Assembly: GCA_021735645.1 (NCBI GenBank)
Contig: JAIPGP010000008.1
Span: forward strand, 1 to 62,810
DNA from: Candidatus Cloacimonadota bacterium
GTDB taxonomy: Bacteria > Cloacimonadota > Cloacimonadia > Cloacimonadales > TCS61
Reading direction: 5' to 3'
DNA: 62,810 nt
Position numbers and translations under genes: made by a program. Positions within the stretch are counted from its first letter, which is position 1, and each line of letters opens with the position of its first letter. This document shows positions 46,262 to 62,810 of this stretch, one piece after another. The notes beneath the pieces are model-generated. The model searched no databases and was not told the DNA's origin. It saw only the letters and a program-made list of their open reading frames with translations.

Positions 46262-46277
46262 AATAACTCTCCTATGC

Positions 46278-46308
46278 AAAAAGACCCCGGATAAAATCAT
46301 CCGGGGTC
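46278..46308 (-). terminator. Strong rho-independent terminator at the end of the pilus-like operon
   Basis: Perfect ten-base arms GACCCCGGAT / ATCCGGGGTC around a six-base loop, followed on the minus strand by TTTTTGC. It lies 17 bases after the beta-helix gene and immediately before the ribosome site of the next gene, leaving no room for a separate promoter, so the next gene may depend on readthrough. Confidence 0.88.
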
Positions 46309-46325
46309 ATTATCAAAATATCAGT

Positions 46326-49300
46326 TTATTTCATTAAGATGCACTTGCGGGTAATCTGATTGCTGCCGGATTGCAGTCTATAGAAATAGATACCCGAGCT
46401 TTGGTTATCAGCACTCCAATTGATAGTGTGTTCACCAGCGTCCTGATGTGAGTTGACCAGAGTTTCCACCAGCTGACCCTTTACATTATAGATCGAGAGA
46501 TTTACCATTCCGCCTTCGGGGATATTATAACTGAACATGGTCGTAGGATTGAAGGGGTTGGGATAATTGCCATTAAGTACAAACTGGGAGTTAACAGGAA
46601 CTTCTCCTGTCTGGAAATCAATCTTAAATAAGTTAGCGGGATTACCCACTATGCTGTCTGCTTCGAATCTGATAGAATTAGTAGACGTTATCGTAGTTTT
46701 TGCAGCATTATCATAGATTCTGAACTCCAGCAGCTCAGGTGCATCACCAGTGATTGTGAAATACCAGAAATCATTTTCCAGTTTACCAATGCTGCGGCAT
46801 TTGCCTTTATTATCGAAAACACCTGCTGAATATTGAGAGTCATTAGTGATCGCATTTTCATTAGCAGTCAGCTCAGCCATCAAGATCATATTTGATAGAT
46901 TGCCAGTTACTGGCTGCCAGTTTGCCAGATTAGAAACAGGTTCTATATCCTCAGCAGACCGTACTTCTTCTGTTTCGGGAGGATATACCAGAAAGAGTGG
47001 TTCATTTGGAACTTCGGGCCAGCTAAGTAAATATGCTTTACCAGCTTCCATATTTTGCAGATCACCAATCCAGGCGCCAAAATACACCGCTGACTGAGAC
47101 TGGGTTTTGAGGCAGGTACTATCAGGTATGGAAATACTCTGAAGAGCTTCCGCAATTGGTAAAGTAGTCTCAGGAATATAGCTTATCCAGTTCCAGCCCT
47201 GCTCAATATTTATGGGATGAGTAATAGGATTGATCATCTCACCGTTAAAAGTGAAACCAGCAAAATCATTGTGCATCTGAATCTTATAGCCAGTATCCCA
47301 GCTAATATTATGTAATCCGCCAACCCATGAAGTGCTGGGGATATCATACTGAGCAAAAGAAGTTTGATTTTTCACATGGAAAATATCAGGGACATCATCC
47401 AGTACGTCAAAAACACTGGATACAGAAGAATTTACTGGAAGCCTGTTAAAGGAAACCCAGTTCCAGCCTTCTACCAGATCATAAGTAACATCTGTAAGAG
47501 GAGAATCTATTGTGAGATCGAGACCAATATCATAAAGACCGTCCTCAAAGAATACCATTTCATTGCATACTTCAATATCACCTGTTTCTGAATTATAGAA
47601 ATCAAACCAGAGCAGATCGGTTCCGCTATTATCATCACTCACAATAGTGATATACCAGAAACCATCCAGAGCATAGAAATTATCCCAAAGGAAATGACTG
47701 CCAGCTACCCAGGTGGCATTACCGCGGCATTGTTCAATAGTCCCGGTTTCATCATACCCAAACGCGGCTAACTGGTTGCTGCCGTCATTGCCCACAAATG
47801 CTCCATCATAAGTAACTGTGGCATATACAATCATGCTGTATTGAGTGCCTTCAATCTGTTCCCAGCCACCAATAAGAGTGAAATTAATGTCTGGAGTAAT
47901 CTGGAAAGCTGTAACATTGATATTTTTCTGGGTAAGCAGAGAAAATCCGTCCAGAGAAGCAGTAACATCATAAACACCATTTAATAAATCGATTTCATAA
48001 GTGCCGTCTGCTGCAGGGGAAGTAGTCACATCTCCGGCAGAAATGATTACATCTTCTACATCTCCTGCACCATTGATCAGATCTACCACTCCTGTAATTG
48101 TCCCTTCATTGGTGATCAAAGGCAGATAGAAATCAATGTCTTCGGTCTGTTGTCCTGAAACGACAATTATGCCTGCCTCAGTTTGAGTTTCATAACCAGC
48201 AAGACTTGCCGTTACAGTATAAACCCCCGGGCTTAAACTTAGAGTATATTCATAATATAAAATTTCCTGTGTAAATGGGTCTAAAACTGCATAAGGATAG
48301 GTGGCATAAGCACCTGCCTGGATTAAAACAGCAGTGGGGTTTCCAATACCTTCTACAGTTACTACACCCACTATTTCTCCCGGAGGTGGAGGAGTAAGCT
48401 CAATGTCCAGAGTAATCAGTTGAGAAGCTACTTCTACAGATTCAAAAGTTTCTGTGCTGTATCCCTCCAGAACAGCTACTACTTCATAGGTGCCTGAAGG
48501 AAGGGTAAACATATAGCTCCCGCTGTTATCAGGATTAGTGACATATTCCGTATTAGGTGGCGCAAGCAAAGTTGCAGTAATTTCCACATCTTGAACTTCG
48601 CCATTTCCTTCGATCAGTGTAACTGTGCCCTGAATACCTGTTTGAACGAAATAAACCGCTCCCATATCAGCAATTGTGCCGTCAGGATCAGCAGCTCCAT
48701 TAGGATCACCTGCATCAATACAAGGAGACATGGTCTCATCGTGTGTGGGCATATTGTCCCAGGAAAGTGAATAATCTCCAATTGCAGGATTGGTGAATAA
48801 TGGGTCTGCTGTGATACAGCCAATACCATAATAGCTTTGACCTGAGCCTGTAGCCAGGTCAGAATACGTAATATTGCAGGTTGTTCCCTGCTCAACATAT
48901 ATGGCATTATAAGCATTATTCCAGACAATAGAATTAACCATATTGATCACAGAGCCATATAGACAGGCAATAGCAGAACCGTTCTGATTAGCTAAATTTC
49001 CCACCATAGTAAGCTTTGTAAAAGTGGGAGAAGAGTTATTAAATACAGAAATACCAGCACCATTCCAGTTTGTAGTGTTTCCAGCTATCAAGACACGTGT
49101 AAATACCGGATTAGAAGCAAAGCAATTGACACCACCACCATCATAAACAGCAAAATTATCAGTGATTTCAGAATCAGAAAGAATAATATCTGAACCATTT
49201 AAATAGATTCCACCACCAGCACCGCTGGCAACACCACCTGTGACCTCGACAAAATTCATCTCAATATCAGAATTCTGGAGATACATGGTTCCACCTGTAG

Positions 49301-49766
49301 TGGCACTGTTATCACTAAATGTGCAATACTGAATCAATAATTCGGAAGAATTCAGGCAGTATAAAACACCACCCTGATAATCAGAAGAAATACCAGTAGC
49401 TCTTCCATATTCAAGGTTGCAATAAATTAGTTGAGATTCGTCCTGTCCTGTAGTTGTAGTATTAAGAAATCTCAATCCATGCCAGCCAGCTACATCGTCA
49501 TCCGCGGTAAAGATAATCTCATTTCCATTAGTTCCTACTGCCAGAATTTGACCAAGGACAATAAACTTGTAGTGACCGGTGAAATTTACGGTTACACCTG
49601 CATCAATGGTTAAAGTAGTTCCGGCATCAATTTGGATTTCTCCATTTACATTATAAGGACTACCAACCAAATTCCAGTTCCCGCTAACTGATCCCGCCGG
49701 GATTTCAGTATCTGCGAAAAGCACAAAACTTAGTGCCAGTAAAACAAAAAATACACATCTTTTCAT
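46326..49766 (-). CDS. Secreted beta-helix protein with CarboxypepD_reg-like repeats and sorting domain
   Basis: 1146 residues. A signal peptide (MKRCVFFVLLALSFVLFADT) is followed by a right-handed parallel beta-helix of pectate-lyase/Omp type (about 20-370; GGTMYLQNSDIEMNFVEVTG, GGGIYLNGSDIILSDSEITD), then three Cna/CarboxypepD_reg-like beta-sandwiches (about 375-640). A module shared with the downstream protein (WEQIEGTQYSMIVYATVTY, WNWVSFNRLP repeats) and a FlgD-Ig / Por-type C-terminus (NYPNPFNPTTMF, LSIYNVKGQLV, GIYFYRLQSG) complete it. Likely a surface adhesin or polysaccharide-binding protein. Seventeen bases after the lipoprotein gene, so it is the last gene of the pilus-like operon. 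Confidence 0.85.
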   Translation of the reverse strand: MKRCVFFVLLALSFVLFADTEIPAGSVSGNWNLVGSPYNVNGEIQIDAGTTLTIDAGVTVNFTGHYKFIVLGQILAVGTNGNEIIFTADDDVAGWHGLRFLNTTTTGQDESQLIYCNLEYGRATGISSDYQGGVLYCLNSSELLIQYCTFSDNSATTGGTMYLQNSDIEMNFVEVTGGVASGAGGGIYLNGSDIILSDSEITDNFAVYDGGGVNCFASNPVFTRVLIAGNTTNWNGAGISVFNNSSPTFTKLTMVGNLANQNGSAIACLYGSVINMVNSIVWNNAYNAIYVEQGTTCNITYSDLATGSGQSYYGIGCITADPLFTNPAIGDYSLSWDNMPTHDETMSPCIDAGDPNGAADPDGTIADMGAVYFVQTGIQGTVTLIEGNGEVQDVEITATLLAPPNTEYVTNPDNSGSYMFTLPSGTYEVVAVLEGYSTETFESVEVASQLITLDIELTPPPPGEIVGVVTVEGIGNPTAVLIQAGAYATYPYAVLDPFTQEILYYEYTLSLSPGVYTVTASLAGYETQTEAGIIVVSGQQTEDIDFYLPLITNEGTITGVVDLINGAGDVEDVIISAGDVTTSPAADGTYEIDLLNGVYDVTASLDGFSLLTQKNINVTAFQITPDINFTLIGGWEQIEGTQYSMIVYATVTYDGAFVGNDGSNQLAAFGYDETGTIEQCRGNATWVAGSHFLWDNFYALDGFWYITIVSDDNSGTDLLWFDFYNSETGDIEVCNEMVFFEDGLYDIGLDLTIDSPLTDVTYDLVEGWNWVSFNRLPVNSSVSSVFDVLDDVPDIFHVKNQTSFAQYDIPSTSWVGGLHNISWDTGYKIQMHNDFAGFTFNGEMINPITHPINIEQGWNWISYIPETTLPIAEALQSISIPDSTCLKTQSQSAVYFGAWIGDLQNMEAGKAYLLSWPEVPNEPLFLVYPPETEEVRSAEDIEPVSNLANWQPVTGNLSNMILMAELTANENAITNDSQYSAGVFDNKGKCRSIGKLENDFWYFTITGDAPELLEFRIYDNAAKTTITSTNSIRFEADSIVGNPANLFKIDFQTGEVPVNSQFVLNGNYPNPFNPTTMFSYNIPEGGMVNLSIYNVKGQLVETLVNSHQDAGEHTINWSADNQSSGIYFYRLQSGSNQITRKCILMK

Positions 49767-49782
49767 AGTATCCTCCTATTTT

Positions 49783-51627
49783 TTAAGGTTTAATTTTAAT
49801 AATTTTTACACCTGCGTTATCGGTTAGATAAACGTAACTGCCAGCCAGATGGATAGAAACAGGTTCCGTATCTAAAGCCAGACTGCCCAGAATGTAGGCA
49901 TTACCCGGATCACTAATATCTATCACATGAAATCCTCTTTCGATATCTGAGATATATATGTAATTATCTTCAGCATAAACACCATTCGTAAATCCTCCTG
50001 TTGCTATATTTTTGATTATAACCGGGGACGACAAATTGCTGATATCAATAATTTCAAGACCTTCCTCTCCATTTGATAAAAAAGCATAATCTCCCTGGAC
50101 AAATACATCATTTGCCAGTCCGGACACCGGCAAAGATGCTACCTGTGATGGAAAATAAGGATCGGTTACGTCAATGATCTCCAAACCATTATTCAAACCA
50201 TTTGCCACAAATGCATTTACGCTGCCATTATTCTCCTGCACATAAATCTTTCGGGCATCATTAAGAGGAACATTGGAAACTGATACCGGTATGGAAGACG
50301 CTATATACATAATGGTCATGCCATTAGCACCTTCTGCTAAATATGCAAAATCACCCTCTACATACAAATCCTTTGGTATCCCGATTGTTTCCGTGACATT
50401 GGAAATTATCGGAGTCTGAAACGATGTGATATCCACTTTCTGGATACCACCCACAGCAGTAGCCAGACTTTGCGTGGCTACATATACAAAATTATCCTTC
50501 ACAAAGGATGAGAGCGTCCTGTCTCCCCAAAGCTCCTGATAATTTGCCACTGCTCCGGGACTGGAAGGATTGCTGCAATCTAGTATCAGCAGACCTTCAT
50601 AACCATCGGAGATAAAAGCTGTCCATTCCGGGATAAAGATATTATCCACCGGAATAAAAATATCATAGGCAGAACCGGAGGTGGGATAGGAACCGATAAT
50701 TTCCAGATTAACACTCAAAGTATCAATATTGGAATTTCCGGACAAAAATACACCCTTATAAGCTTTTAACCGGTACTGTAATACTCCACAAGGCAATAGA
50801 TTGTCATCAATATAAGTGGTTGTATTGCTGTCGATTAGGCAATAATTTGTTTCCCAGTCCAGGTTGCCTGTTTTCTTATCAATGATAAAACCGTCTTCTC
50901 CCTCACTGTTGTCCTGCCATTGCAGACGAATTTTATTTAAGTCAGGAATAGTGCAGCTCAGACCTGAAGGAGAAAGCAAAGTGGCGAAATGCTCCTTAGT
51001 CAGATAGCCAGTCACTGAATTTCCTACATATGCATATACTCGATAAGTAATAGTATCAAAGAGATTCACATTATCAGTTATCTGCCAGTTATTAGGGGCA
51101 AGCAGAATATAGCCATTTTCCCACTCCTCATCATTAACCTTTCTATCAACCACATATCCCTCTTCACCCTGGCAATGATCTTGCCAGGAAATCTCCATGG
51201 CTGATTGTGATACCTGTGTTATCAGCATATCTGTGGGATAAGTATATTCGGAAAAATAGGCAATTACTTCCGAATAGGCAGAAGTAAGTCCCAGCGTGGA
51301 ATTATAATATCGTACTTTGTAGGCATACACTAAACTGTCACTTGTAGGGATATAATCAATCAATTCGTGTACATCGCTTTCCAGTATCACATAGTTTTCT
51401 ACCCAGTTAGCAGTACCGCTTTTCCTGGCAACCTGATAAAATATGGTATCAGTACCTGTGCTTTCGTGTATCCAGGATAGTTTGATACTGAAATTTGTAA
51501 GTTTTTCAATATCTAATCCTACCGGAATATCTCCATCCTCAGGAGCAGTTGATGAACCACACCCAGTCAGTAACAAAAACGTAACCAGTAAGAAAATTCC
51601 TTGGCATATCCATCTAAATGATTTCAT
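49783..51627 (-). CDS. Lipoprotein with FN3-like domains and LVIVD repeats
   Basis: 614 residues. An N-terminal lipobox (LLLTGCGSS, Cys at about 23) marks a membrane-anchored lipoprotein. Three FN3-like domains (about 35-310; IEKLTNFSIKLSWIHES, MEISWQDHCQGEEGYVVDRK, IRLQWQDNSEGEDGFIIDKK) precede LVIVD beta-propeller repeats (YEGLLILDCSNPSSPGAVAN, GLEIIDVTDPYFPSQVASL, GFHVIDISDPGNAYILGSL). It follows the secretin gene by four bases, so it could help the secretin in the outer membrane or decorate the machine. No resemblance to known pilotins is seen. Confidence 0.82.
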   Translation of the reverse strand: MKSFRWICQGIFLLVTFLLLTGCGSSTAPEDGDIPVGLDIEKLTNFSIKLSWIHESTGTDTIFYQVARKSGTANWVENYVILESDVHELIDYIPTSDSLVYAYKVRYYNSTLGLTSAYSEVIAYFSEYTYPTDMLITQVSQSAMEISWQDHCQGEEGYVVDRKVNDEEWENGYILLAPNNWQITDNVNLFDTITYRVYAYVGNSVTGYLTKEHFATLLSPSGLSCTIPDLNKIRLQWQDNSEGEDGFIIDKKTGNLDWETNYCLIDSNTTTYIDDNLLPCGVLQYRLKAYKGVFLSGNSNIDTLSVNLEIIGSYPTSGSAYDIFIPVDNIFIPEWTAFISDGYEGLLILDCSNPSSPGAVANYQELWGDRTLSSFVKDNFVYVATQSLATAVGGIQKVDITSFQTPIISNVTETIGIPKDLYVEGDFAYLAEGANGMTIMYIASSIPVSVSNVPLNDARKIYVQENNGSVNAFVANGLNNGLEIIDVTDPYFPSQVASLPVSGLANDVFVQGDYAFLSNGEEGLEIIDISNLSSPVIIKNIATGGFTNGVYAEDNYIYISDIERGFHVIDISDPGNAYILGSLALDTEPVSIHLAGSYVYLTDNAGVKIIKIKP

Positions 51628-51631
51628 AATA

Positions 51632-52717
51632 CTACTTCTTACTCTTTCTGATCAGAACCGAATCGATCAATTCAGCTTTGATAATAATTACAAGCTCTTT
51701 TTCTGTTACATTATGCAATTCATAGCCAAATACATACCGTAAACCAAACACCCACCAGGGTAAGTCCTTAAGGATTGGTACTCCCCCTCGAGAACGGGTT
51801 TCATCTTTGTCATACAATCCGCCAATCGTAGTCTCTTCACCATCATACATGGTAATTGAACTGGTAGCTCTGCTCTTAGTGATTTCAGTAGAAACTTCGC
51901 CGGGAATAGCAGAAGACCTTTCCACAACTATTCTCATATTAATTGCTTCATTGCCATCTTCATCAGCAATTATGGTGGGAACCACGTCCAGGATCACACC
52001 AGTTGAAAAAAACTGGTCAGTTGTATTACCTGCGTCATCCACAGTTTTTATAGAGAAATCCTTACCTACCTGAATAAAACCTTTCTCACCCGAGTCCACG
52101 TAGATAGATGGTTTTGCCAGCACTTCACCATCCTGATTTTCTTCCAGAATAGCCATTAATACATCCACAGAAATTCTCTGATTACCCGATTCTGTGGTGC
52201 TGCCAGCACCTGCCTGAAATAAATCAGAACCAATAGCTGTAGCACCGCCAAAAGCAATACTGCCAGAAAAATCGACTGCACCATCAATGATTGATGCCCA
52301 GTTGATACCAATATTATCTGCTACGGTCTTCTTAATTTCCAGAACTGAAGCACTGATCTTCACCTGCCTTTTTTGCATGGTCTCTTCACTTTTGTCTTCC
52401 ATTGCTCCCGAATCGCTGATCAGAATTGTGCCTGCCCGTTCTTCTATGCTCAAATTGTGGATTCTACAAATAATCTCCAGAGCATCTTTCCAGTATGTAT
52501 TTTTGATAGGAACACCCAGAACTGAATTAGATGATGACAGGTTATATATCTTCTTCTTTTCTGCTTTGATTGAAATCCTTTCTATTGCCAGCAAGGCATC
52601 ATTGATTGTAGTGGTTTTGCTCAGCGAAATGGTATTATCCTGTTCTTCCCTGCAGACCAGTTGCCAGGTTAGTGTAAACAAAAATATCAGAATCATCAGT
52701 TTTTTATACCCGATCAT
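51632..52717 (-). CDS. Short secretin (PilQ/GspD-like outer membrane channel)
   Basis: 361 residues. A signal-type N-terminus (MILIFLFTLTWQLVCREE) is followed by a single STN/N0-like domain (about 28-100; TINDALLAIERISIKAEKKK) and the secretin domain (about 120-350). The latter has VLEIKKTVADNIGINW, the substrate region VLAKPSIYVDSGEKGFIQVG, SKTEV-like VERSSAIPGEVSTEITKSRA, and DGEETTIGGLYDKDETRSRG with GVPILKDLPWWVFGLRYVFG at the end. Usual PilQ or GspD proteins carry further N1-N3 domains and exceed 600 residues, so this is a minimal secretin. Four-base overlap with the PilO/P-like gene. Confidence 0.9.
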   Translation of the reverse strand: MIGYKKLMILIFLFTLTWQLVCREEQDNTISLSKTTTINDALLAIERISIKAEKKKIYNLSSSNSVLGVPIKNTYWKDALEIICRIHNLSIEERAGTILISDSGAMEDKSEETMQKRQVKISASVLEIKKTVADNIGINWASIIDGAVDFSGSIAFGGATAIGSDLFQAGAGSTTESGNQRISVDVLMAILEENQDGEVLAKPSIYVDSGEKGFIQVGKDFSIKTVDDAGNTTDQFFSTGVILDVVPTIIADEDGNEAINMRIVVERSSAIPGEVSTEITKSRATSSITMYDGEETTIGGLYDKDETRSRGGVPILKDLPWWVFGLRYVFGYELHNVTEKELVIIIKAELIDSVLIRKSKK

Positions 52718-53601
52718 TGATTTCCTCCAGTTCCGATATAGTAAATCTTCTCCTCTTTTCCGCCACCTCTCGTATTCATCATAAAACTCACCCGGCTCTC
52801 TTCTGAATTCACCTCAGTTAATTCACCGTCTATCACTTTATCACCTGAGATAAGAATTTGCATTATTCCCTGTCTATCCCGGAATATTGCTTCTTCTCCT
52901 GAAACGGCTATCAAACTAAGATCATTTAGATTCAATAACCCCACATTACGATCTCTGAGTGCTTTCTCGGCTGCCAGTTTATTTTCCAATAGCCCACAGG
53001 TAAATAATCTACCCACTTTAGGGTTAGTTTTGATCTTCTTCAACTTGGTTTCCACTTTCTGTGGAACAGCATTTTCACTGATAGAATCAAGCATAAAAGA
53101 ATAATTTACTGTATCAGATACCGTAATCTCCGGTGAAAATATTGCCAGATTATATATGTAATAAATTGAGCTTTGTTTCTCAAGATTTGAAATCAGCTGA
53201 TATATTTGATTTAAACCGGCTGAGCCTTTGATTAAATATGAGTTGGTAATCATTCCGCCATCATGCTTTTGCTCGGAATAATTGAAATTAAACACCAGAT
53301 CATCCTTCATTATACTCAGAATATCCAGTAGATAATTAAAAGTGATCGGTGGACTATCGTATTTCAATATTGTTTTATTAAATTTCTCTACCAGTTTTTT
53401 GATTCGTTCCAGTTCTTTCATCTGCTCCAGATTCAGTGCAGATTCTTCACCAATTTTTTGGATTTTACTCTCAATATCTGCTATTTTACTTGTTAGATCA
53501 GCAATATTCTTCTGATTTTTTTTTTGATACATAGTTCCCGCTACTACTACCAGCAATAGCAGTACAAATACGATCAATGTTATCCTTAAAGCATTATTCA
53601 T
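52714..53601 (-). CDS. PilO/PilP-like inner membrane protein
   Basis: 295 residues. One membrane helix (about 5-25), a coiled coil (about 28-75), a ferredoxin-like PilO-type domain (about 80-170; ITFNYLLDILSIMKDDLVFN, IYQLISNLEKQSSIYYIYNL), then a C-terminal small beta domain (about 205-285; LLNLNDLSLIAVSGEEAIFR, DGELTEVNSEESRVSF) that looks like a PilP or GspC HR domain. Such a fusion would link the inner-membrane alignment complex to the secretin. It overlaps the upstream gene by eight bases and the secretin gene by four. Confidence 0.75.
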   Translation of the reverse strand: MNNALRITLIVFVLLLLVVVAGTMYQKKNQKNIADLTSKIADIESKIQKIGEESALNLEQMKELERIKKLVEKFNKTILKYDSPPITFNYLLDILSIMKDDLVFNFNYSEQKHDGGMITNSYLIKGSAGLNQIYQLISNLEKQSSIYYIYNLAIFSPEITVSDTVNYSFMLDSISENAVPQKVETKLKKIKTNPKVGRLFTCGLLENKLAAEKALRDRNVGLLNLNDLSLIAVSGEEAIFRDRQGIMQILISGDKVIDGELTEVNSEESRVSFMMNTRGGGKEEKIYYIGTGGNQ

Positions 53602-55675
53602 GGTAATCCGCCAGTTTGTCCAATAAACTCTTTGCCTTGGGTATCACATCACTCTTAGGATATTTTCTGGTTAAAAGATTCAGGTTCACTATCGCCAGAT
53701 AAGGTCGATCAGTTTTTCTGTAAATCTGAGCCTGCTGATACAAAGCATACGGCTCCATCGGACTTTCTACACTTAATACTTTATCAAATAACCGCTCTGC
53801 TTCAGTAAGTTTCTCTCTTCTCAAATAGATTTCACCCAATAAATAACGGCAATTGATTGCCAGTATATTACGGGGATATTTATCAATGAATTCCTGAGCT
53901 TTGATAATCAGCTCATCATGCTTATATTCATAATAATACTCTGAAATCTGACGGTACTCTTCCAAAACAGGATCAAGCTTCATGGCATGTTCGTTGTTTG
54001 CCGATGATGCCGATTCAGGCTTCTCAACTTGACCACTGCCGGTTGCTTCTGCTGGCGGACTATCGGTAGCTTCTTTCGGCTTTTCTCTGGTTTGCTGCTC
54101 ACTTACATCACCCCAGCTTTGCACAATAGGCAACGCTGGTAGATAACGATATCTTATTTCAAATGTCCAGATTATCTGGTTCTCCCATTCGCTTGATTGT
54201 ACGCTTTTTATGGTTCCTTCCGGGAAACAGCTCGATATTGTGACTATGTTTTCCCGCTTTGTAGTTGACCCAAATATCGAAAATCCATCACTATTACCCT
54301 GTATATTCGTCAACCAGCTTACTGGATTCTGTTCAAACATCTTAGTGAGACTTTCCAGAATCTGAGACCAGATTGCCTTATTGTTATATAATGATTTCAT
54401 TTTATCTAATTGATTACTTAGCCTTTGTATCTCATCCTGAATTCCTGGCCCTGGATCATGCTCAGATTTTATCTGCTCATACTCACCTTTTTTGGTCTCA
54501 TATTGCATTTCCAGAACATTTAGCTGATTCTGTATATCCATGATATTATTCGTAAAGGTAAAGCTGATCCCCAGCAGAATTGCTAACATGAGAAAGCTAT
54601 GCCAGGAAAACTGAACTATTTTCTGGCTCTTTATTACTTTCTTTTCCAGGAAATTGGTCTGAAGTATCTGAGTTGATTTACTATGTAATATTTTACAGGC
54701 AATTGATATTGGTATCACATAAGCTGCCAGCTCTTCCTCGGGCAATTCCTCACCCAGTTCTTCTGCAAAGAGTAAATCACTAAATTTGAATCTACTTACT
54801 TCTGCCGCGGGAAAAGTATTGGCAATCGCATCGATCATCGCATCCTGACAGTATTCTCCGCAAACAATCACCTTCTCTACATGAGGAATTTCCATCTCAT
54901 CCTGATATAATGCCAGGCGGGAACATATCTCATGCTCCAAATCAATTGATTCTGAACTGGTTAAGATTGGCAGACTTTTGACAAATTCGTCGCCCTTCAT
55001 CAAAATGCCTTTCTTATAATCAAAACCCAGGTAGATCACCAGTAGATCATCTTCTTTGTTCAATTCATAGTTCATCCGGACAGCATTGATCAGCGAAATG
55101 TCATTGCTGTCTATCAAACTATAATAATATTTTCGCTCACTTTGAATCTGATTGTATTTCTGTAAATAGCTGAATAACCTGTTCTCTCCCTTATGGATTA
55201 ATATACAAGTCTGATCCTGAGCGGTTTGCACCAGTCCCCACATCACTTCTTTATCACGCATTTCATCTGCATTCAAAAGATTCAGCTTTATCAGATCACG
55301 CCGGGATAAACTTCGTATTGATCTATCCAGATAGTTTATCGATAGTTTCTCATCATTGGCATTAAGTCCAATTCGACCCTGGTTTAAAGGAAAAATACTT
55401 AAAAGATGCTCATGCGGAGAAATTACTGAGTCTAATTCGCTTTCTTCTCCTAAACTTATACCCGGAAGTGATTCCATTATCAGCTCTTCACTCTCAATTT
55501 CCGGGGTCTGGGTATCAAAATTACGACCACCCTCATGATAAATGGAACATTCCATCTCGGTTTTTTTTAGATCAATCAATATCGGATGCCCATTACTATT
55601 GATGATCTGAGCAATCTTCAATATTGGTCCATCTTCAAAGATCCCAAAATAATATTTCCGAGTTTTTTTTGCCAT
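53594..55675 (-). CDS. PilM/PilN-like protein fused to C-terminal TPRs
   Basis: 693 residues in three parts. Residues 1-340 resemble an actin-like PilM domain, cytoplasmic (LLVIYLGFDYKKGILMKGDE, EKVIVCGEYCQDAMIDAIAN). One membrane helix (about 355-373) and a coiled coil (about 375-440) plus small domain (to about 520) resemble PilN. A Pro/Ala/Glu-rich linker (about 522-560) leads to helical repeats (about 570-690; NILAINCRYLLGEIYLRREK) of YfiO/TPR type. In standard pili PilM and PilN are separate proteins; the fusion with TPRs is unusual. Order and overlaps with PilT-like and PilO-like genes support the assignment. Confidence 0.78.
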   Translation of the reverse strand: MAKKTRKYYFGIFEDGPILKIAQIINSNGHPILIDLKKTEMECSIYHEGGRNFDTQTPEIESEELIMESLPGISLGEESELDSVISPHEHLLSIFPLNQGRIGLNANDEKLSINYLDRSIRSLSRRDLIKLNLLNADEMRDKEVMWGLVQTAQDQTCILIHKGENRLFSYLQKYNQIQSERKYYYSLIDSNDISLINAVRMNYELNKEDDLLVIYLGFDYKKGILMKGDEFVKSLPILTSSESIDLEHEICSRLALYQDEMEIPHVEKVIVCGEYCQDAMIDAIANTFPAAEVSRFKFSDLLFAEELGEELPEEELAAYVIPISIACKILHSKSTQILQTNFLEKKVIKSQKIVQFSWHSFLMLAILLGISFTFTNNIMDIQNQLNVLEMQYETKKGEYEQIKSEHDPGPGIQDEIQRLSNQLDKMKSLYNNKAIWSQILESLTKMFEQNPVSWLTNIQGNSDGFSIFGSTTKRENIVTISSCFPEGTIKSVQSSEWENQIIWTFEIRYRYLPALPIVQSWGDVSEQQTREKPKEATDSPPAEATGSGQVEKPESASSANNEHAMKLDPVLEEYRQISEYYYEYKHDELIIKAQEFIDKYPRNILAINCRYLLGEIYLRREKLTEAERLFDKVLSVESPMEPYALYQQAQIYRKTDRPYLAIVNLNLLTRKYPKSDVIPKAKSLLDKLADYHE

Positions 55676-55683
55676 TATTTATC

Positions 55684-56898
55684 CTAAGTGTATTGCATTA
55701 ATTGTGCTATTCTCACTTTGCTGTTTGAAAAATTTATCGCGGTTTCTTTTGTGATTAGTCCTTTGCGATATAATCGGAATAAATCCTGTTCCATTGTCAG
55801 CATGCCGCGTGTCTGTCCCTCATTCATCATCTGATATATTTCCGCCAGATTGTTATTGTGAATTGCTGCACGTACAGAACTGTCTACCGATAAAATTTCC
55901 CTGGCCATCACTCTGCCCTTCGTCCTCCCCGGCAGCAGTCGCTGAGATATTACGATACTGAGTGTGTCCGCCAGCCGATGACGGATCCGGTCCTGCTCAT
56001 TTGCCGAAAATTCGGCAATGAAACGGTGCAGTGTATCTGTCGCCGAACTGGTATGCAAAGTAGAAAAAGTTTTATGTCCACTATCTGTGATCTCCAGTGC
56101 AGCAGCAATTTCTGTAGAATTCCTGATCTCGCCTATCACGATCATATCAGGGTCCTGGCGTAAGGACTGAATAATTCCGCCCGCAAAGGAATTCACGTCT
56201 GTACCTACCTCCCGATGCCTCACCAGGCATTTCTTGGAAGGATGAATATATTCGATCGGGTTTCCTATTATAATGATCTCACCATTATTTCTGGAATTAT
56301 TATAGTCAATAATGGCATCAAGTGTTGTACTCTTTCCCGAACCGGTTAGTCCCGTTATCAAAGTAAGACCATACTTCTCCTTATCCATATCAAGCCGTTC
56401 TATTACAGCCTGTGAAAAACCCATACTATTTAATGACATGGGAGTTGCATTTATTAACCGCATGTTTAGAGCCAACCCGTTTTGATCAAGATATATATTT
56501 CCACGAGCTCGACGATTTTGCTCTCCGGATTCCGGATTTATCGCCAGATCAAGGGCTCCATTTTTCAATAGCATTTCCAGATATTCCTCTTCCACAAAAC
56601 TTAAAATAAATATCTCTTCGTCAACTTTTCGCAGGTTGCCATATTCCGCAATAGGTGCCTTATTCCCATCAATTCTCATCCAGACCTGCCGTCTGCATCC
56701 GGCAGCGCCCATATCAAGATCCGAAGCTTTTTTGCCCGACATTAATTCCAGAAAATGGGCTGTCAACTGGTCACTATAATTCTGCCAGGTCCGGTTCTTC
56801 ATCATTAAATTATGCAAATACCGCAAACGAGGACGACCCTTCAGCGGTATTTCCTGCATATCTGCTTCACTTATATTATACTTTAGTTCCATCTTCAT
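55684..56898 (-). CDS. PilT-like ATPase with altered Asp box
   Basis: 404 residues of the type II/IV secretion ATPase family. Walker A GLTGSGKSTT (about 183-192), Walker B DPDMIVIGEIR (about 250-260) and His box SGHKTFSTLHTSS (about 273-285) are intact. The Asp box, normally EDPIEY, reads GNPIEYIHP, so both acidic residues are gone. The N-terminal PAS-like domain carries an extra 40 residues at the front. By family it would power pilus retraction. Whether it hydrolyses ATP normally is uncertain. The 3' part of the upstream regulator gene overlaps its start by 23 bases. Confidence 0.85.
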   Translation of the reverse strand: MKMELKYNISEADMQEIPLKGRPRLRYLHNLMMKNRTWQNYSDQLTAHFLELMSGKKASDLDMGAAGCRRQVWMRIDGNKAPIAEYGNLRKVDEEIFILSFVEEEYLEMLLKNGALDLAINPESGEQNRRARGNIYLDQNGLALNMRLINATPMSLNSMGFSQAVIERLDMDKEKYGLTLITGLTGSGKSTTLDAIIDYNNSRNNGEIIIIGNPIEYIHPSKKCLVRHREVGTDVNSFAGGIIQSLRQDPDMIVIGEIRNSTEIAAALEITDSGHKTFSTLHTSSATDTLHRFIAEFSANEQDRIRHRLADTLSIVISQRLLPGRTKGRVMAREILSVDSSVRAAIHNNNLAEIYQMMNEGQTRGMLTMEQDLFRLYRKGLITKETAINFSNSKVRIAQLMQYT

Positions 56899-57748
56899 TC
56901 TCTTTTGTCACCTTTTCATAACCCACGAATAATCCCAGCTTTCCCAGAGCACTTTTCCAGCGCTGATAAAATATATACATCAGATTTATGGTATAACGCT
57001 TTAAGGCTCTTTCATCCCGAAATCTAAAAAATTCCATGATCTGCTGCCTTCTAAAATGCCGTACCCTCGCTTCTGTTACCGCCCGTAAGCCGGTAAATAA
57101 ATAACTGATATTTAAAAAAGATTCCTCGCCCCAACATTGACCTGCATAGAGCGATTCTACTTTGATCGTTCCCAGTAACACACCCAGTTCGCCAGACTCT
57201 ACCAGTATTATGCTGCCATTCTTATCATCCATGGGAACAATATCTCCAGGCTGATAATGTCTGATTATTGATATCTCTTCAAATTGCATTACATCATCAG
57301 CGGAAAAACCCTTTAGCATCTGAGGTAAAGTCCTTTCCAGCTTGGATTTGGTGCCCGTCTCGAGTATATCAGGAGAACCCAGACTTTCTGCATAGGCAAA
57401 TCCTCGCCGCACTACATCCAGAAATTCATCTGCCATTATTGGTTTGGCTATATAATGAAATGCCCCTTCCCGAATAGCCCGTACGGCATTCTCCAGTGTT
57501 GAAAAACCGGTGGTGATTATGATCACTGCAAATGGATGACGACGTTTGATCTCTTTCATCAATTGCATACCATCCATCCGCGGCATGCAGATATCAAGTA
57601 CATAAAGATCAAACTTCTGATATTCCAGCTTCTCAAGAGCATCTTCCCCATCTACTGCAGAAGTGGTCAAATACCCCTCGTCTCGCAGAAATTCTTCTAA
57701 TAAATCTCTGATATTCTTATCATCATCTACTATTAAAACCCTTTTCAT
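56876..57748 (-). CDS. Response regulator: receiver plus cNMP-binding-like domain
   Basis: 290 residues. The receiver (1-120) is complete: acidic DDD at 8-10, phospho-acceptor Asp52 (YVLDICMPRMDG), Thr79/80 and Lys102 (YIAKP). A cyclic-nucleotide-binding-like beta-roll follows (about 150-250; EISIIRHYQPGDIVPM, GSIILVESGELGVLLG, AGQCWGEESFLNISYLFTGLRAVTEARV). No DNA-binding helix-turn-helix is clear at the end, so it may act by protein contact or as a second-messenger sensor. It lies between a degenerate kinase and a PilT-like ATPase, which suggests control of the pilus machine. No known two-domain system with this exact order comes to mind. Confidence 0.85.
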   Translation of the reverse strand: MKRVLIVDDDKNIRDLLEEFLRDEGYLTTSAVDGEDALEKLEYQKFDLYVLDICMPRMDGMQLMKEIKRRHPFAVIIITTGFSTLENAVRAIREGAFHYIAKPIMADEFLDVVRRGFAYAESLGSPDILETGTKSKLERTLPQMLKGFSADDVMQFEEISIIRHYQPGDIVPMDDKNGSIILVESGELGVLLGTIKVESLYAGQCWGEESFLNISYLFTGLRAVTEARVRHFRRQQIMEFFRFRDERALKRYTINLMYIFYQRWKSALGKLGLFVGYEKVTKENEDGTKV

Positions 57749-57750
57749 AT

Positions 57751-58593
57751 CTACTCCTCAGAAGTGATCGCACTCTTCTGCCTGAAACTCTCCATACTTT
57801 CTAATATTGCAATCATTTTATTTACCGAATCAGCTATCTCATTGCTGCTCCGAGCTAAATCATCATTCTCAAATTCCGCTGCCGCCTTCTTTATCCGCTT
57901 CAATGATAAGGATACTACACATAATTGCGTATTTATATCCCGATCAATCCACACGATATCTTTCACAGCCTCACATAACTTATTCATATTCTTATTTTCT
58001 TCGCTTACTTTGTCAAGTCTTTCACTAACTAATACCTTCTCTTTCTCCGATTCATGCTTATCTATACCAGCATTCACAGTTAGATCGTTTAAATAATTTA
58101 CTATAAATCCGATTACGCAGAACAATCCCGAATACGATAATAAATAGATCGTGCCAAAATCCTCCCAGCTCCCTGTAGGCGACTCCAGCCAGCCCAGCCG
58201 GTAACTCGCTATCAAACCCAGCAATGAAAATGTGCCTATCAAACCTGTCGTCACTCCACCCGTCCGGGGGATCAATAAACTTGCAGTTATCACCGGGATT
58301 AAGTATAACCAGCTGAAATAACTACCTGGACCTCCGGTCAAGTGAACTGATAAAGTAGCAAATACTATATCCAGTACTATCTGAATAATTATTGCAAACT
58401 GACTTTCACCACCTTTCTGTAGATGAAAATATAGATTCAATGCCACTAATCCGCCAAAAACTCCCAGATATACTAAAGGTTGATAAGCTCCGGAATTGTG
58501 CAATAATTCCAGTGTTCCCACACACATTACTACCAGGATCATAAACCAGCGCAGGTTTGACCACCATTTTAAAATCTTTTCTCGATAATACAT
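57751..58593 (-). CDS. Membrane sensor with degenerate histidine-kinase dimerisation domain
   Basis: 280 residues. Six hydrophobic helices (about 15-35, 38-58, 65-88, 92-112, 115-132, 150-168) resemble the PilS-type sensor. A coiled coil (about 178-210) leads to a helical pair (about 211-270), ending without a catalytic ATPase domain. The H-box position reads DRDINTQL (about 217-224) where kinases have (S/N)HEI(N/R)NPL, so the phospho-acceptor His is Arg. It cannot be a working kinase by itself. It may sense membrane state and bind the neighbouring receiver. It follows the LamG gene with no gap and is three bases before the response-regulator gene. Confidence 0.7.
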   Translation of the reverse strand: MYYREKILKWWSNLRWFMILVVMCVGTLELLHNSGAYQPLVYLGVFGGLVALNLYFHLQKGGESQFAIIIQIVLDIVFATLSVHLTGGPGSYFSWLYLIPVITASLLIPRTGGVTTGLIGTFSLLGLIASYRLGWLESPTGSWEDFGTIYLLSYSGLFCVIGFIVNYLNDLTVNAGIDKHESEKEKVLVSERLDKVSEENKNMNKLCEAVKDIVWIDRDINTQLCVVSLSLKRIKKAAAEFENDDLARSSNEIADSVNKMIAILESMESFRQKSAITSEE

Positions 58594-59715
58594 CTAGATT
58601 CTCCATTCCACTAATTTTGGCATCTTTATCCCATCATAGATCATCAATTGCATCAATTGACCGATTGTCATCACATCTGCTATTGAACGCATTGAATCCA
58701 GTGATCCATTGACTCCGGACTTTCTTCCCTGGCCATTTGGTGCTCCCACAATATGCCCGATCGTTAAAACACTGCTATTGGATTTTGCTGGCATGCCTGT
58801 TGCATTAATACTATTTATTGCCCAAAGATCAGCATCCACCACACCTACCATGATCTCCTGTTTTTGCATATTTAGAACTCCTACAATAAAATGCCAGGCA
58901 AGAAAGTCCATTTGATCTTCAGCAATTTGTAAAGTAACACTTTCATTGCCAATATTGGTAACGACAAAAAACCGAAGATCAATTGTTGGATGACCTACAA
59001 ATTTTGTTTTAGCATCCAGCGTAAATCCAGTGATCTGATTACCCTGATCATCAGAAGTTTCTGTGATAATATTACCAAAATCTACAGGTCCTACCTGTTC
59101 AAATTTTACCCAGGTTGCAATTGTCAGCATATCATCATATTCTTCAGTTATATCTGAACCCATGTCCACATAATCCTCATCCCCATCAAAGGTTAATCCG
59201 GAACCATACATACCTTCTATCCAGCTACTGTCATCCATATCGATCATGGTCCCATCATAACCAAAATCAGATAGATCTGTTAAAGTTGTGCCGGAACCCT
59301 CATCCATTGTATAATAGCCAAACTGATCTTCGGGCTGAGTAATAAAAAAATCTATTAAGGCTCGTGAATTTGAGGCTATAGACTGACCGGATTGCCAGCT
59401 TTTGATATAAGGTATCACCTCCACTGTATCACCTGCTACCGGTATATAACATATGCTGTCTATCTCACCTATACTTAACGCAAATTGCGGCGTATTCCAG
59501 GTTTGTGCCACGCCCTGCATTATCACTTCTCCGGATTGCAGCTTCTGCATGCCATAGCTGAGAGCATAGCTTCCCAATAATTCCGTCTGCATATTCAGGA
59601 GGCTGTGGTCTAAGGAATCATTAATTTTGGTTAAATTACTCTGTAAGTTGCTTAAATTTGTGCCTATCACTAATGCCATTAAGACAACTAATATTAAATT
59701 AATTTTTCCCATCAT
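58594..59715 (-). CDS. Membrane-anchored LamG-domain protein (pilin-like N-terminus)
   Basis: 373 residues. The N-terminal hydrophobic helix (about 4-20; INLILVVLMALVIGTNL) and following amphipathic stretch resemble a pilin-like stalk without a GFTLIE processing site. Residues about 125-360 are a concanavalin/LamG-type lectin domain (FGYYTMDEGSGTTLTDLSDF, GLTFDGDEDYVDMG, DDMLTIATWVKFEQVG, GSLDSMRSIADVMT). It is a paralogue of the next gene upstream but lacks its Gly-Asn arrays. Placed in a pilus-like operon, it may be a minor pilin or tip adhesin that binds carbohydrate. That role is inference. Confidence 0.78.
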   Translation of the reverse strand: MMGKINLILVVLMALVIGTNLSNLQSNLTKINDSLDHSLLNMQTELLGSYALSYGMQKLQSGEVIMQGVAQTWNTPQFALSIGEIDSICYIPVAGDTVEVIPYIKSWQSGQSIASNSRALIDFFITQPEDQFGYYTMDEGSGTTLTDLSDFGYDGTMIDMDDSSWIEGMYGSGLTFDGDEDYVDMGSDITEEYDDMLTIATWVKFEQVGPVDFGNIITETSDDQGNQITGFTLDAKTKFVGHPTIDLRFFVVTNIGNESVTLQIAEDQMDFLAWHFIVGVLNMQKQEIMVGVVDADLWAINSINATGMPAKSNSSVLTIGHIVGAPNGQGRKSGVNGSLDSMRSIADVMTIGQLMQLMIYDGIKMPKLVEWRI

Positions 59716-59765
59716 AACCTCCTAATTATTTTTTTTCTGCTCAAGCAGACATTACCATGTTTCCG

Positions 59766-61301
59766 CTAAATTTTCCAATCCCTCAAAACTGGCTTCATCA
59801 CTCCATGATAAAGCATTAGTTGACGCAATTGCTGAGGGGTCATGGCATCTGCTATCAATCTCAAAGCATCTATTGAGCCATCAAAACCGGAATATGTTAC
59901 CGGACAAGGTCCATAACCGTGGCAATTTCCATGCCCCCAGCCCCAGGCATAGGCATTCCCATTGCCATTTCCACCGTTACCATTGCCATTAACATTATTG
60001 CCATTACCATTACCACTATTGCCATTGCCATTGCCACCGTTACCATTACCATTACCCCAGCCATAATGATTGCCGTTATTACCATGCCCATTGCCTTGAC
60101 CATAGTCACCATCTGCATCCAGGATACTGCCAAGCGTGATATTGCTTGTTGCGTCTCTGGCTGGTAAGGAAGTGGCGCTTATGGACTCTACTGCCCAGAT
60201 ATCTTCATCCACTAAGCCTAAACTTATTGTCTGGTCTTCTGTATTTACTACTACTGCTATATAATGCCAGTCAAGAATATCTATTTCCCAGTCATATACT
60301 CTTAAATCCACATCCTCTAAGCCGCTGGATGTAACAATTTCAAAATGGAAATCTATATATTCATCTCCACTATTTCCATTGCCCCAGCCATAGTGATTGC
60401 CATTATTGCCACCACCCCAGCCCCAGCCCCAGTGGTTGCCGTTGCCGCCATTTCCATTGCTATTTCCGTTCCCATTTCCACTGTTTCCGTTGCCGTTGCC
60501 ATTACCGTTGCCATTACCATTGCCGTTACCATTGCCATTACCATTACCATTGCCATTGCCATTACCGTTGCCCATATTACTTTCATCAAAAGTAACTTTC
60601 ATTTCTAAAGTAAAACCGGTAACCTGATTACCATCTAAATCTGAGTTCTCGGTTAGTATTGTGCCCCATTCTCCATGATTCCCGCTGTCTATGGCTATCC
60701 AGGCAGCCAGAGTCAGCAGATCGTCATATTCCTGAGCAATTTCTTCTCCCAGATACACATTATCATCATCACCGTCAAAATCCAAAGCATAAGAATCCAC
60801 TCCTGTTACCCAGTCTGTATCATCCATATTCACCAGTGCTCCATTATAGGCATAACCAGAGCTGTCGCTTAATACTCCACCTGCTCCATCATCAAACATA
60901 TAATAGGCAAACTGCTCTTCTGGCTGAACAATATTGAAGCCCAATGTAGCTGAAGACACTCTGCTGTTTTCTCCATCTACAGATTCACCTCTGATATAAG
61001 GAATTATCTTCACGGTATCGCCTACTCCTGGAATATATTGAATACTGTCAATATTGCTGGACATCACTTCAAAATCATCAGCAATCCAGGTTACTGGCAC
61101 ACCTTCCAGTAATACCTCTCCCGATTCCAGTTTGTGGATGCCATAATTCATGGCAAAACTTCCCATTGATTTCATCTGGAAAGTCTCATGGTACTTGTTC
61201 ATCTCTGCCGACAAGTTCGCGGCATTTTTGCTCAAACTGCTAAAGTTTGTTCCTACAACAATCACTACTATAAACACAATAAAAATATTAATTCGTCCCA
61301 T
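59766..61301 (-). CDS. Membrane-anchored LamG-domain protein with two Gly-Asn repeat arrays
   Basis: 511 residues. An N-terminal helix (INIFIVFIVVIVVGTNF) and pilin-like stalk are followed by a LamG-type domain (FAYYMFDDGAGGVLSDSSGY, YALDFDGDDDNVYLGE, DLLTLAAWIAID, GFDGSIDALRLIADAMTPQQ). Two loops carry low-complexity inserts, about residues 243-313 (long GN runs) and about 399-463 (GN runs with His/Tyr/Trp). The paralogue downstream has short loops at the same two places, so the arrays are insertions into exposed loops. Two Cys (GNCHGYGPCP) close the second array. It may bind polymer or metal, or phase-vary in length; unproven. Confidence 0.8.
   Translation of the reverse strand: MGRINIFIVFIVVIVVGTNFSSLSKNAANLSAEMNKYHETFQMKSMGSFAMNYGIHKLESGEVLLEGVPVTWIADDFEVMSSNIDSIQYIPGVGDTVKIIPYIRGESVDGENSRVSSATLGFNIVQPEEQFAYYMFDDGAGGVLSDSSGYAYNGALVNMDDTDWVTGVDSYALDFDGDDDNVYLGEEIAQEYDDLLTLAAWIAIDSGNHGEWGTILTENSDLDGNQVTGFTLEMKVTFDESNMGNGNGNGNGNGNGNGNGNGNGNGNGNGNGNSGNGNGNSNGNGGNGNHWGWGWGGGNNGNHYGWGNGNSGDEYIDFHFEIVTSSGLEDVDLRVYDWEIDILDWHYIAVVVNTEDQTISLGLVDEDIWAVESISATSLPARDATSNITLGSILDADGDYGQGNGHGNNGNHYGWGNGNGNGGNGNGNSGNGNGNNVNGNGNGGNGNGNAYAWGWGHGNCHGYGPCPVTYSGFDGSIDALRLIADAMTPQQLRQLMLYHGVMKPVLRDWKI
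59914..60106 (-). repeat. Gly-Asn coding repeat array 2
   Basis: About 190 bases of imperfect six-base units (GG(C/T)AA(C/T) in coding sense), encoding GNGNGG/HYGWGN-type repeats. Variation is mainly synonymous, so selection on the peptide or replication slippage is likely. Confidence 0.85.
60365..60575 (-). repeat. Gly-Asn coding repeat array 1
   Basis: About 210 bases of six-base units encoding uninterrupted GNGN for about 25 dipeptides, then GNS/GNG/HWGWGWGGG variants. The longest pure run is at about 60480-60570. Confidence 0.88.
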
Positions 61302-61310
61302 CTTATCCTC

Positions 61311-61883
61311 CTATATTGCTAGGTTTGGGAAATACTTGCGTATTACCAGTGTTCTCGCTCTCATTGTATCAGTATTATATTGTCCCTGATACACCGCCAG
61401 TATGATCTGAATAGACCTGATCTGTGCTCTGCCTACCGCTGTAGCCAAAGCTGCACTACTTATTTCATTTCCATCTATATCAAAATAAATTATCTCTATC
61501 GGAGCAGCTAAATAGATGGGTCCTATATCTGGTTTTCCGTCTATCTGCATATTCAAAGAATAACCAAAATTTGCATCTTCACCTCCTGTATTAATTTTCA
61601 CTAAATATATCGTTTCATCACCTTCATCCAGTTTTGTATTCAGCCACACAGTATTCGACAGGGCGGCTGGAAATGCCTCCACTGCTTCCGGCAGCTCATA
61701 ACCCACTTTATCCATCAAGTAATCATCAATTATATTGCTGACATATTCCAGCTCGGTGATGATCTGCATCTCACCTTTCAGGATCATATTATTTTCCTGT
61801 ATTGTGATCAAAGAGGTAAACATGGTCACCATCAGCAAACCGCCTATTATTGTTGCACCTATTATATCTAATAAACTTTGCAT
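61311..61883 (-). CDS. Pilin-like membrane-anchored protein 2
   Basis: 190 residues. A hydrophobic helix near the N-terminus (about 5-26; DIIGATIIGGLLMVTMFTSL) then an amphipathic helix (ENNMILKGEMQIITELEYVS) and a beta-rich domain (about 75-180; NTVWLNTKLDEGDETIYLVK, RAQIRSIQIILAVYQGQ). This is the layout of a PilW/GspJ-type minor pseudopilin but without a recognisable prepilin peptidase site. It starts one base after the preceding gene's stop. The function follows from context only. Confidence 0.6.
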   Translation of the reverse strand: MQSLLDIIGATIIGGLLMVTMFTSLITIQENNMILKGEMQIITELEYVSNIIDDYLMDKVGYELPEAVEAFPAALSNTVWLNTKLDEGDETIYLVKINTGGEDANFGYSLNMQIDGKPDIGPIYLAAPIEIIYFDIDGNEISSAALATAVGRAQIRSIQIILAVYQGQYNTDTMRARTLVIRKYFPNLAI

Positions 61884-61884
61884 C

Positions 61885-62316
61885 TTAGATACCCATATCC
61901 GCGATTAATTTCTGTAATGGGTTTGCAGCAGTACCCATCCACAGCGTATCTCCAATCCCCGGATTGCAGGCTATGCGCAGATCAAATCTCAAAAAATTAC
62001 TCTCCGATCCCACATCGGTGCCTATTGAATCACACCAGTTTGACTCTACATTGATATGATAATCTATGTCCATCAAAGTTATTAGTCGCGTGGTATCTGC
62101 CCAGGTTGTCTCTAATTCATCAAATGACACCAGATCCGCTATATATGAAAACTCGATCTCCTGAAACACTCCCTCTGCCAGCTTCAATGCCTGTAACCGG
62201 GCAAACTCCCGATTATGCATATCATACCAGCGGAATAAATTATTGTAATATCCCAGCATCATAGTAGAAAATAATAATATCGCCAGTAGCACTAACATTG
62301 TCTGTCCATAAGCCAT
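61885..62316 (-). CDS. Pilin-like membrane-anchored protein 1
   Basis: 143 residues. It begins MAYGQTMLVLLAILLFSTMM, with GQ followed by a hydrophobic helix as in PilX/PilV or Tad-type minor pilins, then a helix (REFARLQALKLAEGVFQEIE) and a beta-rich C-terminus with two Cys (NWCDS, RIACNPG). No Glu5 or GFTLIE motif is seen. It lies three bases after the truncated ATPase gene, so it is part of the same operon. Confidence 0.6.
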   Translation of the reverse strand: MAYGQTMLVLLAILLFSTMMLGYYNNLFRWYDMHNREFARLQALKLAEGVFQEIEFSYIADLVSFDELETTWADTTRLITLMDIDYHINVESNWCDSIGTDVGSESNFLRFDLRIACNPGIGDTLWMGTAANPLQKLIADMGI

Positions 62317-62319
62317 ATC

Positions 62320-62675
62320 TTATCCCTCCGAAGTAGCATAAGCTACTTCCTTTAATGATGTTATTCCTTCTTTTATCCTCTCTACTCCAGATTGTCTGAG
62401 ATTCAGCATTCCTTTTGAAGCAGCGATTTTTTTTAACGTCTCTTCGTCAATTTCATCACCAGATTTAATTATTGCCTGCCTGATCTCTGGATAAAAATAA
62501 AGCGCTTCTGTTATTGCACATCTTCCTTTATATCCACCCTTACACTTTGGACATCCTTTTGGGTTTTCCTGATAGGCAAGTCCTGCATCCAAATCTTCCT
62601 GGGTAAGACCAAGTTCAAGAGCCGCAGGCCAAAATTCTTTATCAAGAGGCTGCTTGCAATGTTTACATAATCTTT
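62320..62675 (-). pseudogene. PilB/GspE-type ATPase, C-terminal fragment cut by the IS element
   Basis: The frame reads RLCKHCKQPLDKEFWPAALE, then LGLTQEDLDAGLAYQENPKG, CPKCKGGYKGRCAITEALYF and so on to TAA at 62320. The paired CxxC motifs (CKHC and CPKC) and the G(Y)KGR(C/T)AI(T/Y)E stretch are the zinc-binding C-terminal part of GspE/PilB assembly ATPases. The catalytic parts are missing because the IS end replaces everything upstream of the RLC codons, creating a TAA across the junction. In the genome this ATPase would be broken unless another copy exists or the junction is a misassembly. Confidence 0.88.
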
Positions 62676-62810
62676 AATGACTATCCGGCTGTCTCCGTAA
62701 AACTTGACAATAAGATTACTCGGTGGAAATTTGCTATCAAATATTCAATGGAGGTCTATTAATGAAACATTATGAAACGATAAGTTTCTTTGAATTTCAG
62801 AAGCAATATT
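62676..62810 (+). mobile_element. 5' end of an IS1595-like insertion sequence, right copy (truncated by contig end)
   Basis: The 135 bases match the reverse complement of 1-135 perfectly. The transposase start is the ATG at 62762 with GGAGG upstream; 16 codons (MKHYETISFFEFQKQY) remain before the contig ends. The insertion lies inside the PilB/GspE-type gene. Target duplications cannot be seen because the other end of the element is absent. Confidence 0.7.

Follow-up and report, generated by a model that had tools for sequence, protein, structure and literature searches.

A Cloacimonadota gene locus points to a type IV filament system whose pilins are probably made without a leader peptide

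What kind of machine is encoded by a run of pilus-like genes in which no major pilin and no platform protein are apparent, and which includes subunits with LamG modules? The question is raised by one end of the window, a 62,810-nucleotide contig (C106; JAIPGP010000008.1 of assembly GCA_021735645.1) from the 3.77-Mb genome of a Candidatus Cloacimonadota bacterium that shares its genus with Candidatus Stygibacter frigidus. On its minus strand, 13 genes from a pilB remnant to the gene for a β-helix protein follow each other with intergenic gaps of −23 to +50 bp. According to reviews, all type IV filaments share a conserved step in which a dedicated prepilin peptidase removes the leader peptide (PMC4471445, PMC10191384). 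With a probability of about 0.7 we read the locus as representing, in Cloacimonadota, an ancient type IV filament system of the Fibrobacterota–Chlorobiota–Bacteroidota (FCB) group, a class without class III leader and prepilin peptidase whose pilins would be made in their mature form.

The start of the operon lies on a second contig, C135, which continues the window upstream. It carries two histidine kinases, an NtrC-type regulator, a major pilin of 140 amino acids (aa), the platform protein PilC/GspF (PF00482, 2e-25) and most of the ATPase PilB (C135:109-1578, a frame of 489 codons, the final ones of which belong to the insertion sequence); the window keeps just the last 116 residues of PilB. 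A single insertion sequence has one of its ends at the end of the window and the other at the adjoining end of C135; the two share a 12-bp perfect inverted repeat (AATGACTATCCG). Near-identical copies of the end in the window occur 22 more times in the genome, mostly at contig ends. The 8 bp next to the element are identical on both contigs (AAAGATTA), and the empty site reads as an unbroken in-frame PilB. Insertion sequence and duplication together occupy 62668-62810 of the window and 1-143 of L007. In the source assembly, pilB is thus broken by an insertion sequence. Since pilin and PilC are encoded on C135, the locus has both, and a system lacking a PilA-type major pilin and PilC, as implied in a preliminary description of this DNA, was rejected. 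The minus-strand operon of that description is borne out in its tight spacing and terminator, apart from PilB, of which only the C-terminal end is in the window.

Because pilB is interrupted, the copy of the system in the source genome may be inactive. A stronger version of this view holds that the system is decaying there and that the insertion has turned the locus into a remnant. The insertion-sequence ends and the target duplication in pilB, seen on both contigs, fit such decay, but every other gene is open and the metagenome-assembled genome (MAG) may mix strains. Moreover, PilB is intact with 596 aa in a genome of the same genus (G088), where the genes from the pilin to the retraction-type ATPase PilT2 and the start of the PilM-PilN fusion (PilMN) lie on one contig. 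We regard decay as possible but somewhat doubtful.

The pilins start with M-G-x-Q-Q, followed by a hydrophobic helix. Among 54 distinct pilins, Gly occupies residue 2 in 53 and Gln residue 5 in 53; the one exception at residue 5 has Glu. In 53/54 no ATG, GTG or TTG follows the upstream in-frame stop before the MG start is reached, which leaves no room for a leader peptide; mis-called start codons were rejected on this ground. Many of the pilins have a Shine-Dalgarno motif of the AGGAG type just upstream of this start. A profile built from 48 pilins found type IV pilins in all of its top seven PDB matches (best 3.3e-4), in a register that places 3 residues ahead of mature position 1. Any leader would be at most 2-3 residues long, which together with Gln5 distinguishes these N-termini from class III signal peptides; reported prepilin leaders span 6-26 residues (PMC4471445), and that of the canonical PilA in the source genome has ~10. 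The minor pilin-like proteins encoded downstream, which we call PL1, PL2 and X, were compared in the same way. PL1 shows Q5 in 9/9 orthologues and no upstream start, X begins with MG in 41/42, and PL2 has D/E6 in 18/18 orthologues. MGxQQ-type pilins have probably been overlooked in annotation, because NCBIfam gave no match for the one pilin scanned.

Does a prepilin peptidase accompany these pilins? In a sample of 396 genomes of the phylum Bacteroidota, the pilin was found in 129 and PilMN in 131; 127 hold both and 6 are discordant. These and the following cross-tables assume that searches with the same centre and size drew the same 396 genomes, to which their common genome labels point. The peptidase family PF01478 was detected in 51 of the 396 genomes and in 12/14 controls. 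Among the 127 carriers of pilin and PilMN it is present in 15 and absent from 112. All 15 also encode N-methyl pilins (PF07963), two carriers have PF07963 alone and 110 have neither, a near-complete association of the two families within carriers (Fisher p = 1e-17). Over the whole sample of 396, PF01478 and the MGxQQ pilin are distributed independently of each other (p = 0.75). No PF01478 match above chance (E <= 10) was obtained in five near-complete single-contig genomes that all have the operon (G434, G322, G319, G367, G204). Where PF01478 loci were read, they lay apart from the operon and resembled clusters of type II secretion system (T2SS) type or of Tad type. In the loci read, no candidate peptidase was seen, whether inside the operon or conserved beside it; one 588-aa protein conserved next to several of them looks by eye like an aspartyl-tRNA synthetase rather than a peptidase.

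These counts bear directly on the idea of an ordinary type IVa pilus, in which a prepilin peptidase, either borrowed from another system or too divergent to recognise, would cut the pilins behind Gly2. The near-invariant Gly2, reminiscent of Gly-1 of prepilins, and the presence of PilD in most Cloacimonadota speak for it. We nevertheless consider it unlikely: PF01478 is missing from most carriers although the same search detects it in other genomes and in nearly all controls, PilD tracks the PF07963 pilins, no candidate peptidase was seen with the operon in the loci read, and a 2-residue leader would be far below the reported range (PMC4471445). Searches of open-licence papers turned up neither leaderless pilins nor type IV filaments free of a prepilin peptidase.

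The gene order recurs widely. In Cloacimonadota it runs pilin-PilC-PilB-PL1-PL2-X (1 to 3 copies)-sensor with six transmembrane helices (6TM)-REC/cNMP regulator-PilT2-PilMN-PilO-secretin; this refers to loci with machine genes, as far as contigs reach and leaving aside an occasional uncalled gene. A distinct, recurrent locus of more than ten genes, for which the preliminary description had suggested a search, is supported across the phylum, in which the pilin profile matches 89/125 genomes. Complete or partial, the core pilin-PilC-PilB-PilT2-PilMN-PilO-secretin is also found in MAGs of Balneolia, Rhodothermaceae and Ignavibacteria, and its order in 18/20 regions around pilin matches from an even sample of the phylum Bacteroidota. 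In phylogenetic trees, the locus ATPases, PilB2 and PilT2, form clades of their own, apart from canonical and Cytophaga-type ATPases. Within the PilB2 clade, the Bacteroidota sequences are separate from those of Cloacimonadota, as expected under vertical descent. The secretin measures 354-463 aa in most relatives and 586 in one. The fused PilM-PilN and the short secretin, which had been singled out as peculiar, are real but common to the whole FCB-wide system rather than special to loci with LamG. In one Cloacimonadota family (L042, L047, L048) PilMN reaches ~940 residues by extension of its C-terminal part, compared with ~690 in the window. One genome has 15 pilin-profile matches, many of them arrayed on one contig (G119:C134:10747-20937).

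Family assignments were made with domain models and profile comparisons. PilB2 scores as an assembly ATPase with 403 bits against TIGR02538 and 374 against GspE, both under the cut-off; PilT2 reaches 303 bits with TIGR01420 (cut-off 319) and is sister to PilT in the tree. The 361-residue secretin, identified as such before, was confirmed by PF00263 and by hhalign with the canonical PilQ that the source genome also encodes (1.7e-13). For the proposed PilM/N-TPR fusion, the family profile supports PilN (M. xanthus 4.9e-8, Thermus 0.008) and the C-terminal TPRs are present, while the PilM part is weak (0.17). Of the proposed PilO/P fusion the PilO-like part is probable; a PilP-like part was not found by comparison with PilP. 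Single-sequence hhalign against canonical PilM, PilN, PilO and PilP from the source genome gave no informative match. The gene calls of the preliminary description are largely correct, but it had overlooked two genes, one for the 6TM sensor and one for the REC-cNMP regulator.

The nearly equal GspE and PilB scores of PilB2, and a PilC that is nearest to GspF, would suit a type II-like secretion machine with a periplasmic pseudopilus instead of a surface pilus, and a secretion system resembling type IV pili, the Cytophaga 'T2SS', exists in the same wider group (PMC6668835). PilT2, on the other hand, is encoded in nearly every complete locus, and PilT has been identified only in type IVa pili (Tfpa) according to a 2014 review (PMC4471445). 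The ATPase of the Cytophaga type falls in a different clade, and the same genomes hold its locus separately from the one described here. A secretion machine of this kind is improbable.

The X proteins consist of a minor-pilin scaffold followed by an exchangeable C-terminal domain. The scaffold has an MG[KR] start, a hydrophobic helix, a non-acidic residue at position 5 and a conserved region ~120 residues long. The C-terminal domain is Laminin_G_3 in 11/39 X proteins (Pfam) and bactofilin or DUF7305-like in others. The window encodes two such proteins, X1 and X2, described earlier as membrane-anchored LamG proteins. The transmembrane anchor was recovered, whereas neither gives a direct Pfam LamG match; the call relies on orthologues of 44-62% identity with Laminin_G_3 matches, among them the fifth open reading frame of L009 (62% to X2; 1.2e-5), and on a profile that matches a chain of solved structure. 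Asn-Gly-rich repeat tracts lie inside the LamG region of X1 (window 59954-60056 and 60447-60572) and are missing from its orthologues. A search of relatives, suggested earlier as a check, found LamG-bearing minor subunits in several Cloacimonadota genera. In three Bacteroidota loci (L073, L074, L092), the equivalent slot holds PL1/X-like or PL1/PL2/X-like genes. No LamG was seen on members outside Cloacimonadota, where the per-protein Pfam read-out covers L014 only.

LamG subunits had been described as absent from standard type IV pilus and T2SS loci, but their uniqueness is not supported. Modular pilins are widespread (PMC8179133), and a ConA-like lectin module is already known on a pilin, PilC of the Streptococcus sanguinis type IV pilus, a demonstrated glycan binder that modelling places at the pilus tip (PMC9934059). 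Like X, this minor pilin combines a pilin moiety with the lectin module and is encoded beside other minor pilins; it differs by its class III signal peptide and an Ig-like module, whereas X starts with MG[KR] without a leader and exchanges its domain between lineages. LamG on X is hence a new example of a known idea, and the lectin-tipped fibre of the preliminary description is plausible but has a precedent. The replacement of LamG by bactofilin or DUF7305-like domains in many lineages could mean that the module has a structural or protein-binding role and binds no glycan. Given that the nearest architecture, S. sanguinis PilC, binds glycans (PMC9934059), we consider this rather unlikely.

Some observations weigh against a leaderless, peptidase-free filament. 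PL2 has its glycine at position 9, where a short leader is possible. Most Cloacimonadota have a prepilin peptidase, including the source genome, in which it occurs only with a further type IV pilus locus, of canonical type, that encodes PilD and a leader-bearing PilA (L005 9174 to L006 4415, G000:C3), and an unrelated peptidase could act on the pilins. Structure prediction is moderate for the pilin (AlphaFold pLDDT 64, no Foldseek match) and weak for the LamG subunit (pLDDT 37). The assignments of PilM, PilO and PilP are weak, and the filament itself is a prediction from genes.

Homology suggests that PilB2 would extend and PilT2 retract a pilus of small MGxQQ pilins on the PilC platform. The PilM-PilN fusion and PilO would align the machine, and the pilus would leave through the short secretin. 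The pilins, X and PL1 appear from their sequences to be translated at or within ~3 residues of the mature N-terminus, and a prepilin peptidase would therefore not be needed; at most the methionine would be removed. Gln5 would substitute for the usual Glu5, whose normal pairing partner is the N-terminus, and N-methylation may have been lost. PL1, PL2 and X would make up the minor-pilin set, for which homologous systems suggest a tip position. Without acidic residue 5, as in tip subunits, X is probably a minor subunit at the tip that displays the exchangeable domain, and its LamG module is a likely glycan-binding adhesin. The 6TM sensor and the REC-cNMP regulator may control the system. Overall, the genes would encode a dynamic filament with adhesive minor pilins, with filament formation and glycan binding both predicted from sequence.

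The coordinates of all features are given in Table 1.

Table 1 Features of the operon and its ends in the window
Feature	Position	Strand	Evidence or remark
Insertion sequence end, interrupts pilB	62676..62810	-	multicopy; terminal inverted repeat AATGACTATCCG
Target-site duplication AAAGATTA, 8 bp	62668..62675	-	same 8 bp on C135
PilB2 C-terminal part, assembly ATPase	62320..62667	-	T2SSE 1.9e-9; 72% to L009 PilB
PL1, minor pilin-like, 143 aa, MAYGQ start, without leader	61885..62316	-	hydrophobic helix from residue 5-6; synteny
PL2, minor pilin-like, 190 aa	61311..61883	-	D/E6 conservation; synteny
X1, minor-pilin scaffold and LamG module with Asn-Gly-rich inserts, 511 aa	59766..61301	-	alignment; N-terminal scaffold profile match across phylum
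X2, minor-pilin scaffold and LamG module, 373 aa, MG start at 59712	58594..59715	-	62% to L009 fifth open reading frame
PilS-like membrane sensor, 6TM, without detectable kinase domain	57751..58593	-	PF25323 3.7e-9
Response regulator, REC and cNMP-binding domain	56876..57748	-	PF00072 3.6e-30, PF00027 6.5e-4
PilT2, retraction-type ATPase	55684..56898	-	TIGR01420 303 bits; own clade adjoining PilT
PilM-PilN fusion with C-terminal TPR	53594..55675	-	family profile vs PilN; ybgF-type TPR 7.9e-13
PilO-like protein, possibly PilP-like C-terminus	52714..53601	-	family members match T2SSM_b 1.6e-4, PilO 0.0034
Short secretin, 361 aa	51632..52717	-	PF00263 7.4e-28
LVIVD lipoprotein	49783..51627	-	PF08309 3e-26; synteny after secretin
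Repeat/β-helix protein, CarboxypepD_reg and type IX secretion system (T9SS) sorting domain	46326..49766	-	PF13620, PF18962, TIGR04183
Intrinsic terminator, strong, 11-bp stem	46283..46308	-	closes operon

The last two genes and the terminator agree with the preliminary description in their domain matches and stem. The LVIVD lipoprotein gene follows the secretin gene in several genera, and its product may sit with the secretin in the outer membrane. Orthologues of the β-helix protein are 80% identical in L008 and 62% in L009. Because it has a T9SS sorting domain and the source genome encodes a SprA homologue, it is probably exported by the T9SS and not by the pilus-like machine. The SprA homologue (G000:C9:6668-10708, 449 bits) suggests that a T9SS is probably present in this Cloacimonadota genome. 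The gene after the terminator (window 44069-46300) encodes a relative of the β-helix protein's C-terminal repeats, and its homologues hold the same position in L008 and L009.

A filament class without leader and peptidase, which the preliminary description did not mention, seems more surprising than the LamG subunits. If it is true, a widespread clade lacking both leader and enzyme would make the leader-cutting step dispensable, and the purpose of the leader, be it preventing early assembly, topology or N-methylation, would become testable. It could also explain genomes in which pilB, pilC, pilT and pilQ are reported to be present and pilA and pilD absent, such as Melioribacter roseus (PMC3534657).

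Among known systems, the Tad pilus was rejected, as TadA sequences lie far from PilB2 in the tree. The PilM-like fusion and the secretin match the NCBI models of the Akkermansia pilus proteins Amuc_1098/1101 weakly, far under the cut-offs. The Cytophaga hutchinsonii-type 'T2SS' resembles the locus in being derived from type IV pili, in its occurrence in Bacteroidetes and in its divergent pilin (PMC5553014, PMC6668835). It differs by an N-methyl pilin and a prepilin peptidase in the locus, by a separate ATPase clade and by the lack of PilT in the loci read; with its ATPase in another clade, PilT2 present and no peptidase in the locus, our system is not identical to it. With the type IVa pilus the locus shares homologues of PilB, PilC, PilT, PilN and the secretin, probably also of PilM and PilO, and a pilin with an N-terminal helix, whereas it departs from that pilus by having no leader, no Glu5 and no dedicated prepilin peptidase, a fused PilM-PilN and a secretin of ~360-460 aa.

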